This document shows positions 30,029-31,829 of a DNA stretch of 39,760 bases, piece after piece. Each line of letters starts with the position of its first letter. The stretch's first letter is position 1. The position numbers were made by a program, and so were the translations under genes. The notes under the pieces are model-generated. The model had not been told where the DNA came from, searched no databases, and was given only the letters and a program-made list of their open reading frames with translations. Source of the DNA: Bacillota bacterium (GTDB lineage: Bacteria > Bacillota > Negativicutes > Sporomusales > CTSoil-080); assembly GCA_017889625.1 (NCBI GenBank), contig JAGGAD010000002.1:1-39760 (forward strand), written 5' to 3'.

Positions 30029-30038
30029 ATATCAAGTT

Positions 30039-30136
30039 AAATATTTTTGGGGAGCTTGTTTGGCAGGCTGAGAGGAAGTAGTTAGACTTCGACCCATATA
30101 CCTGATTTGGATAATGCCAACGTAGGAAGGATATTT
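30039..30136 (+). ncRNA. TPP riboswitch (THI element)
   Basis: The conserved core is plain: GGGGAGC, CTGAGAGG, GACCC, then ACCTGATTTGGATAATGCCAACGTAGGA. AAATAT (30039-30044) pairs with ATATTT (30131-30136) as P1, and an extra P3a hairpin (GGAAGT...ACTTC) is present. It senses thiamin pyrophosphate and would stop thiW-thiM transcription through the terminator at 30157-30192 when TPP is plentiful. Confidence 0.94.
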
Positions 30137-30156
30137 GTGCTATTATTTTTAAGTAC

Positions 30157-30192
30157 AAATGGGATATGCCGTTGTTGGTGTATCCCATTTTT
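30157..30192 (+). terminator. Riboswitch expression-platform terminator
   Basis: AAATGGGATA (30157-30166) pairs with TATCCCATTT (30181-30190), extended by a wobble pair region, and the arm ends in a T run. It lies 20 nt after the TPP aptamer, the normal place for its switch. Confidence 0.85.
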
Positions 30193-30231
30193 GTTGTGTG
30201 TGATAAATTGCTTCGAATTTAAGTTCTGAGA

Positions 30232-30257
30232 AGATGGAGGGGGAGCGCCCTGCATCT
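30232..30257 (+). promoter_or_regulatory. Hairpin of unknown role in the thiW leader
   Basis: AGATG (30232-30236) pairs with CATCT (30253-30257) and AGGG with CCCT inside, around a G-G mismatch. No T run follows. It sits between the first terminator and the second TPP-like element. Confidence 0.4.
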
Positions 30258-30270
30258 TATTGCAAATAAA

Positions 30271-30368
30271 AACTAAATAGCGAGGGAGCTCGTGTTTCGA
30301 GATGAGAGGAAGCTTTGCAGCTTCGACCGACTTTGTGTGGTATATGCCATACAGCGGGCTATTTAGTT
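30271..30368 (+). ncRNA. Candidate variant TPP-like aptamer (second leader element)
   Basis: A perfect 11-bp outer stem (30271-30281 with 30358-30368) encloses three hairpins: CTCG/CGAG (about 30288-30300), GAAGC/GCTTC (30308-30325) and TTGTGTGG/CCATACAG (about 30333-30354, loop TATATG). Junction bases TGAGAGGA and GACC copy the pyrimidine-sensing side of the TPP aptamer upstream. The pyrophosphate side differs: GTATATGCC and CAGCGGG replace the canonical GATAATGCC and CGTAGG. It may be a decayed duplicate or a variant that senses a thiamin precursor. Structure was drawn by eye. Confidence 0.5.
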
Positions 30369-30481
30369 ATACGAGAAGATACCTTGATAACAACGTTTGT
30401 CTGCCTGTATGACATAATTACGGTACAGGATTTAAGTGCTTTTGTACTTAAAAATAAATTGTGGTTAGCGAGGTATTTTTT

Positions 30482-31015
30482 ATGCAAAGAAAAACTGGTC
30501 TTTTAAAAATGGTTATGTTATCAATGTTGATTGCCCTAGGAGTGGTAATTTCGCCACTTCTTCGGATCGAAGGTATGTGTCCGATGGCTCATTTGATTAA
30601 TATCGTATGTTCTGTTTTATTGGGGCCGTGGTATTCATTGCTTTGTGCAACGTTGATTGGTATGCTCAGAATGATGCTTATGGGGATTCCGCCGTTAGCA
30701 CTTACAGGTGCGGTTTTTGGGGCAATGCTGTCAGGTGTTTTTTACAGAGCGTCTAAAGGAAAACTGATTTGTGCGGTTTTCGGTGAGATTTTTGGAACCG
30801 GTGTCATCGGAGCAATTGTTTCGTATCCGGTTATGACGTTTGTCTGGGGAAAACAAGGGCTAACCTGGATGTTTTATGTACCACTATTTATTTGTGGAAC
30901 GCTTATCGGTGGGACAATTGCTTACATTTTTCTAAAATCGTTAAGAAAAACGGGCATTTTGGCGAATTTTCAAAGAAGATTAGGAGCAAAAGTTTATGAC
31001 AACTCAAACCATTAA
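30482..31015 (+). CDS. thiW: ThiW, thiazole-type ECF transporter substrate-binding membrane protein
   Basis: Integral membrane protein of 178 aa with about five to six hydrophobic helices, of the ThiW family of S components, thought to take up the thiazole moiety of thiamin (hydroxyethylthiazole) together with a shared ECF energising module not found in this window. Typical early segment: LSMLIALGVVISPLLRIEGMCPMAHLIN. I start at ATG 30482, 8 bp after GAGGT; a GTG at 30461 would add residues before that site. Its 3' end overlaps thiM by 20 bp, and both follow TPP-responsive leader RNA. Confidence 0.88.
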   Translation: MQRKTGLLKMVMLSMLIALGVVISPLLRIEGMCPMAHLINIVCSVLLGPWYSLLCATLIGMLRMMLMGIPPLALTGAVFGAMLSGVFYRASKGKLICAVFGEIFGTGVIGAIVSYPVMTFVWGKQGLTWMFYVPLFICGTLIGGTIAYIFLKSLRKTGILANFQRRLGAKVYDNSNH

Positions 31016-31829
31016 TATCTCAGAAATATTGGAGATAAGACACAAGGTTAAGGTAGCAAATCCGCTGATTCATTGCATAACCAATCCTATTTCAATCAAT
31101 GACTGTGCAAATGTTGTGCTTGCTGTTGGGGCAAAACCGATTATGGCTGAGCATCCGGCCGAGGTGTCTGAAATCACAGCCCTTTCACAAGTTTTAGCGG
31201 TAAATATTGGGAATATAACGGATGTACGGATGCAATCCATGCTGATTTCCGGTAAAATAGCCGATAAAAAAGGTTTGCCTTCGATTATCGATCTTGTGGG
31301 AGTTGGCTGTAGTACACTTCGGCTTGCGTTTGCTAAAAAGTTTATCTCGAAATGCCATCCTAGTGTTATTAAAGGTAACATGTCGGAATTAAAAGCTATT
31401 TGTGGATGTGAAGGTAAGGCCAAAGGGATTGATGTCGGCGAACATGATGCTGTTACGAATAATAATTTGCATGATAGTATATCGATGCTGAATTCGCTTG
31501 CTGTTAAAACCGGCGCTGTTGTTGTGGCAACGGGAGTAACGGATATTATAACTGACGGAACGACGATATACCTTGTTGAAAATGGCTGTCAAATGCTTCC
31601 TTTAATAACCGGTACAGGCTGCATGCTTAATGCCCTTGTTGCAAGCTTTATCTCAACTGAGAATATTATTGGTGGAACAGTTTTGGCGGTGGCTGTTATG
31701 GGAATCAGTGGTGAACTTTCCCAGCGAGTTAAAGGTACCGGAAGTTTTAGAACAGAATTATTAGATTGTATCTTTAATCTGACGGATTATATGATTAAAG
31801 AAAAAATACGTTGTACAGTATTGGCTTGA
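30996..31829 (+). CDS. thiM: Hydroxyethylthiazole kinase
   Basis: Phosphorylates 4-methyl-5-(2-hydroxyethyl)thiazole for thiamin salvage. 277 aa, usual length. Motifs include PLIHCITNPISIND (near residue 22), GAKPIMAEHPAEV, VIKGNMSEL (near 127) and the ATP-site TGTGCMLNALVAS (near 209) with its conserved cysteine. AGGAG lies upstream within thiW, whose 3' end it overlaps, so both genes are expected on one transcript. With ThiW it makes a two-gene thiazole uptake-and-capture unit. Confidence 0.94.
   Translation: MTTQTINISEILEIRHKVKVANPLIHCITNPISINDCANVVLAVGAKPIMAEHPAEVSEITALSQVLAVNIGNITDVRMQSMLISGKIADKKGLPSIIDLVGVGCSTLRLAFAKKFISKCHPSVIKGNMSELKAICGCEGKAKGIDVGEHDAVTNNNLHDSISMLNSLAVKTGAVVVATGVTDIITDGTTIYLVENGCQMLPLITGTGCMLNALVASFISTENIIGGTVLAVAVMGISGELSQRVKGTGSFRTELLDCIFNLTDYMIKEKIRCTVLA

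Follow-up and report, generated by a model that had tools for sequence, protein, structure and literature searches.

A TPP-riboswitch-related RNA upstream of thiazole salvage genes in Bacillota

The succession of two TPP-like RNA elements before a single thiW-thiM gene pair raises the question of what the second of them is. The pair lies in a 39,760-nucleotide stretch of a Negativicutes genome (Bacillota bacterium, assembly GCA_017889625.1, contig JAGGAD010000002.1, positions 1 to 39,760), the whole of which is referred to here as the window. The upstream element is a canonical TPP riboswitch. A sequence-only reading of positions 30271-30368 had described the downstream one as a non-canonical TPP-like aptamer, either a decayed tandem copy of its neighbor or a variant whose ligand is a TPP precursor, for instance thiazole or its phosphate. 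To our knowledge no riboswitch is more widespread than the TPP riboswitch, and we are aware of natural changes in its ligand specificity only as unpublished mentions.

Anatomy of the tandem leader

The two elements comprise the following features.

30038-30146, + strand: canonical TPP riboswitch aptamer, the upstream tandem partner (Rfam RF00059, 72.2 bits)
30159-30192, + strand: hairpin resembling an intrinsic terminator, belonging to the canonical TPP riboswitch, with T-run, read directly in the sequence (ATGGGATA...TATCCCAT)
30231-30258, + strand: hairpin A, a new conserved 5' domain (AAGATGGAGGGGGAGCGCCCTGCATCTT; outer stem, G.G mismatch, inner 4-bp stem AGGG/CCCT)
30242-30247, + strand: hairpin A loop, GGAGCG
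30271-30281, + strand: P1 5' strand, AACTAAATAGC, partner of 30358-30368
30284-30329, + strand: conserved TPP-like core with GGGA, P3, J3-2, P3a and CGACCG in order
30289-30301, + strand: P3, loop UGUUU
30303-30308, + strand: J3-2, UGAGAG
30309-30324, + strand: P3a
30324-30329, + strand: CGACCG
30330-30357, + strand: degenerate P4 arm, where TPP riboswitches have the P4/P5 pyrophosphate sensor
30358-30368, + strand: P1 3' strand, GCTATTTAGTT, partner of 30271-30281

Re-reading of the sequence confirmed the letters and coordinates of the segment first described, its perfect 11-bp outer stem (AACTAAATAGC at 30271-30281 with GCTATTTAGTT at 30358-30368) and the three hairpins inside. Likewise, TGAGAGGAAG and CTTCGACC are common to the element and the canonical riboswitch at 30038-30146, and the P4/P5 letters differ between the two as had been stated. 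The extent first given holds for the P1-enclosed part; it overlooked hairpin A, whose loop is among the most conserved loops of the whole RNA. The whole element, hairpin A plus the P1-enclosed part, occupies 30231-30368. Its predicted fold energy is -37.7 kcal/mol as opposed to -23.5 kcal/mol for dinucleotide shuffles (z = -4.9), and none of 200 shuffles folded as well.

The Rfam TPP model (RF00059, Rfam 15) gives the second element 18.2 bits (E = 0.28), far from the curated cut-off of 54.3 and from the score of an ordinary full TPP aptamer, and no other Rfam 15 family matches it. In 20 loci, relatives of the element score at most 30 bits with this model or go unreported. The description as a non-canonical TPP-like aptamer before thiW-thiM is thereby supported.

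Conservation and distribution of the class

Alignment of 55 diverse members reveals a common layout. Read in the 5' to 3' direction, hairpin A comes first and is joined by a variable linker to P1, which ends in AGCG. A(U) and GGGA follow, then P3, whose loop is rich in U, then UGAGAG, P3a and CGACCG; the P4 after these is variable or missing, and the P1 3' strand comes last. In this alignment 98.1% of cells are paired (76.7% when shuffled), 265 cells carry double changes (70 shuffled) and the covariation score is 0.654 (0.218 shuffled), while sliding the pairing partners leaves at most 48% paired. More specifically, all nine stem pairs of hairpin A show double changes, with 95.7% of cells paired, and its GGAGCG loop recurs in 98 of 105 loci. 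P3 and P3a are 100% paired, with three and four pairs doubly changed, respectively. The stems are therefore preserved among relatives through compensatory changes. The P1 3' strand lies at a variable distance, and across 86 leaders the median P1 score is 19.9, compared with 11.9 after shuffling of the 5' strand. The P4 arm varies in sequence and length among members and is apparently absent at some loci (L108).

Two loci (L090, L132) carry a different hairpin, lacking the GGAGCG loop, in place of hairpin A, and at another (L012, genome G031) an insertion of about 100 nt separates hairpin A from the core, which makes this locus a natural test of whether the two need proximity. A kissing interaction of the hairpin A loop with L3 (GGA:UUY) was considered and dropped, because L3 differs in members that precede a transporter (below) and was fixed in others by the pattern used to scan genomes. 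That pattern accounts for part of the L3 conservation; it left the stems, hairpin A and P4 unconstrained.

The likeness to the TPP riboswitch (THI element, RF00059) extends to P1, a short GG/CC P2, P3, the UGAGA junction, the P3a insert and the GACC return strand, as well as to thiamin genes and terminator or Shine-Dalgarno (SD) platforms. The pyrimidine-sensor side of RF00059, made up of P2/P3 and the UGAGA junction, is present throughout: UGAGAG is invariant, the 2-bp P2 is GG/CC in 55 of 55 members and P3 covaries. In contrast, the canonical P4/P5 signature (CCUGAU..CGnAGG, GGnUAAUnCC) was found in 0 of 169 members, compared with 110-128 of 137 canonical-like sequences. The class further differs in having hairpin A with its GGAGCG loop, in reading ACCG where TPP riboswitches read ACCC, in scoring below the Rfam cut-off and in preceding thiazole salvage genes almost exclusively. 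The P3 pair beside UGAGA is G-C in canonical TPP riboswitches; in the class it is mostly A.G, G.U, G.A or C.U, and thus usually non-Watson-Crick, but G-C in transporter-type members. On these comparative grounds, window positions 30231-30368 are a member of a conserved cis-regulatory RNA class derived from the TPP riboswitch, one that, as aligned, retains the pyrimidine-sensor half (P1, P2, P3 and UGAGAG) without the P4/P5 pyrophosphate sensor and has an additional 5' hairpin. The class would illustrate the loss and replacement of one sensor arm in an aptamer that has two.

A model of hairpin A plus the core (R2) separates the class bimodally: members score 47-98 bits and canonical TPP RNAs at most 39. 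Within the window it gives 89.8 bits to the second element (30231-30329) as opposed to 31.1 to the canonical one. R2 matches occur in about 64 of 380 Negativicutes genomes, several with two copies; a sample of 398 genomes from the phylum contained six carriers. Many Clostridia and some Erysipelotrichales have the element as well. When 100 relatives were searched at the DNA level, it was recovered at 80-88% identity in about 11 genomes, always upstream of thiW, and scanning 84,980 species genomes with the pattern found it on at least 118 contigs. Among the matches listed are Lachnospiraceae, Oscillospiraceae (Faecalibacterium, Gemmiger, Oscillibacter), Erysipelotrichales (Floccifex), Clostridiaceae and, within Negativicutes, Veillonella, Propionispira and Anaerovibrio; carriers include many gut and soil Bacillota. 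The class is thus common, with a clean covariance signature, and has been overlooked by Rfam; no description of it was found in the open-access journal literature searched.

The comparative data also bear on the decayed-copy proposal. Letters shared with the upstream aptamer and the low Rfam score are what a non-functional duplicate of that riboswitch might be expected to leave. However, the proposal is rejected, because the RNA is conserved down to invariant positions, strongly covarying and spread across Bacillota, and many members stand without a canonical TPP riboswitch alongside. Alternatively, the element may still sense TPP through a reorganized phosphate site, forming a pseudo-cooperative TPP-TPP tandem. 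The common descent and the tandem order would suit this reading, and tandem TPP riboswitches are known (PMC9481103); the lack of the P4/P5 signature in all 169 members, the apparent absence of P4 at some loci, the many solitary copies and a gene range unlike that of canonical TPP riboswitches make it very unlikely.

Downstream genes and switch direction

The second element is followed in the window by a putative expression platform and two genes.

30379-30391, + strand: anti-SD, ATACCTTGATAAC, pairing with 30464-30476 in the MFE fold
30464-30476, + strand: thiW SD region, GTTAGCGAGGTAT, pairing with the anti-SD at 30379-30391
30482-31015, + strand: thiW, ECF S component ('W2' clade by tree; TIGR02359, E = 3.5e-40)
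30996-31829, + strand: thiM, hydroxyethylthiazole kinase (NF006830, 258.5 bits)

Where enough downstream sequence is available, thiW and/or thiM come next in 70 of 75 loci, and in the other five a PhnD-type substrate-binding protein, an ATPase and a fused permease. Second RNA copies in Negativicutes mostly stand upstream of this same transporter, and in two genomes the RNA precedes an AIRS-ThiN fusion (ThiN E = 1e-31). The regulon therefore comprises the thiazole branch, TMP synthase and the transporter, without thiC or thiT. The binding protein of the transporter resembles TPP-binding p37/Cypl lipoproteins weakly, below cut-offs, and its low-confidence AlphaFold model (pLDDT 63) gives only a generic PtxB/PhnD/MG289 fold match, from which no ligand was deduced. 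The RNA class flags this uncharacterized PhnD/Cypl-like transporter as a candidate carrier of a (possibly phosphorylated) thiamin-pathway compound.

The transporter genes lie directly 3' of the RNA at L147 (1272-4631), L139, L126, L101 and L161, in Clostridia and Negativicutes, with further loci at L280-L282, L285, L288-L296 and L298. The AIR-synthase-like/ThiN fusion, a possible TMP synthase, is found at L283 and L284 (405-2000). The ThiW clade of the window carries the motifs GMCPMAH and GIPPLALTG rather than KCxPVQH and AFPGSM, and its ThiM, one of two in the genome (the second at L005), scores below the TIGR00694 cut-off; substrates may differ in both cases. In the ThiW tree the RNA does not accompany the Negativicutes W1 clade, and the class sets apart a ThiW subfamily. 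Because it precedes two deeply separated ThiW clades, the RNA was rejected as a marker of a single ThiW paralog.

Riboswitches are in general marked by a conserved, structured leader, an association with one pathway and an expression platform, and the class combines these properties. The anti-SD/SD pairing recurs in L018, L020, L103 and L164, although the sequences differ. In Veillonella the start codon lies within P1 and the SD directly after CGACCG. In Clostridia a covarying hairpin links the P4 3' strand to an anti-SD across the P1 3' strand (score 18.8, 13.9 shuffled; 31 of 39 loci exceed the shuffled mean). In terminator-type leaders the 5' arm of the terminator pairs with the P4 region around the P1 3' strand, and this anti-terminator scores 20.7 in nine loci, as opposed to 14.3 shuffled, with p ≤0.04 individually in six. 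The anti-terminators, anti-anti-SD hairpins and start codons in P1 all imply that folding of the aptamer would turn expression off, and the class is inferred from these platforms to act as an OFF riboswitch. For the window itself this direction is carried over from relatives, because the alternative anti-SD hairpin of Negativicutes leaders, the window included, does not rise above shuffles (14.9 vs 14.2), and thermodynamic SD accessibility with and without P1 gives no overall direction (p = 0.19, n = 67). The anti-SD/SD helix of the window by itself shows no direction.

Upon ligand binding the aptamer (P1/P4) would fold and displace the anti-terminator or anti-anti-SD hairpin, or bury the start codon; the terminator or anti-SD helix would then silence the genes. 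In the window this switch would act on translation and the TPP riboswitch ahead of it on transcription termination, the two in series. The TPP-then-variant tandem also occurs at L029-L033, L035, L037, L059, L060 and L063. At L133 the order is reversed: thiW is preceded by a canonical TPP riboswitch with terminator, and this in turn by the variant RNA.

The best explanation, which we regard as likely, is a TPP-derived class without the pyrophosphate sensor that works as an OFF riboswitch on genes of thiazole salvage and uptake, thiW-thiM above all, and that probably responds to a thiamin-related molecule other than TPP. With reasonable probability, the class arose from the TPP riboswitch by dropping the pyrophosphate-sensor arm and gaining a 5' docking hairpin, its ligand is a thiamin-pathway compound distinct from TPP, and the genes under its control across Bacillota are those for thiazole uptake, TMP synthase and the PhnD/Cypl-like transporter.

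Candidate ligands

The UGAGA of TPP riboswitches is the pocket that holds HMP, and the TPP aptamer makes hardly any contact with thiazole. The invariance of this pocket sequence in the class therefore argues for a ligand with an aminopyrimidine, that is, thiamin, TMP or an HMP compound. Thiamin or TMP would be favoured, followed by HET(-P) or HMP-PP; the first place is due to the invariant UGAGA, the OFF logic and the loss of the diphosphate arm. More specifically, it is plausible, if still tentative, that the pyrimidine pocket still present recognizes thiamin or TMP and that hairpin A has assumed part of the role of the lost arm. The likeness of the transporter to TPP-binding p37/Cypl is a supporting point. 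Unpublished TPP-class variants preferring thiamin or TMP, from the Breaker laboratory, are mentioned in PMC9481103 (ref. 82); these would resemble the present class in having an altered ligand preference, and neither sequences nor genes are given there. On the other side, a thiazole-branch regulon without thiC or thiT is unexpected for a thiamin sensor, and UGAGA could persist as a structural T-loop with no pyrimidine bound.

That regulon, with thiW, thiM, thiE/ThiN and the transporter, is what gives weight to the earlier suggestion of thiazole itself (HET or HET-P), which would repress its own uptake and phosphorylation by feedback. The OFF-type platforms of relatives would fit. Only ThiG fragments of about 30 bits, none convincing, were found in the genome that contains the window, and thiazole must therefore be salvaged; canonical TPP riboswitches there precede thiC, thiT, ykoF-ykoE and a second thiM-thiE (gene names read from translations). 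However, the TPP aptamer barely touches thiazole, whereas the pyrimidine-pocket sequence is the part that stays invariant, which leaves HET or HET-P unlikely.

HMP-PP, or HMP or HMP-P, would retain a use for the pocket and could exert feed-forward control of thiazole supply, in the manner of the clostridial thiS motif. The latter is an HMP-PP riboswitch with a terminator-embedded hairpin, and was shown to be an ON switch (PMC6478431). Like the present element, thiS-motif RNAs stand in tandem behind TPP riboswitches and accompany thiW, thiE and other thiazole-branch genes. Sensing of HMP-PP would need an ON switch, whereas the start codons in P1, anti-terminators and anti-anti-SD hairpins of relatives point to OFF, and the proposal is accordingly doubtful. 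The element is not itself a thiS motif, an identity rejected on its unrelated architecture: it is multi-stemmed and has no U-run behind hairpin A. The class opens the way to direct ligand assays.

Finally, an inverted repeat of about 15-17 nt (ATTTTTAAGTACAAA / TTTGTACTTAAAAAT) flanks the second element at approximately 30143-30159 and 30441-30457 of the window; the 3' copy contributes to the SD hairpin.
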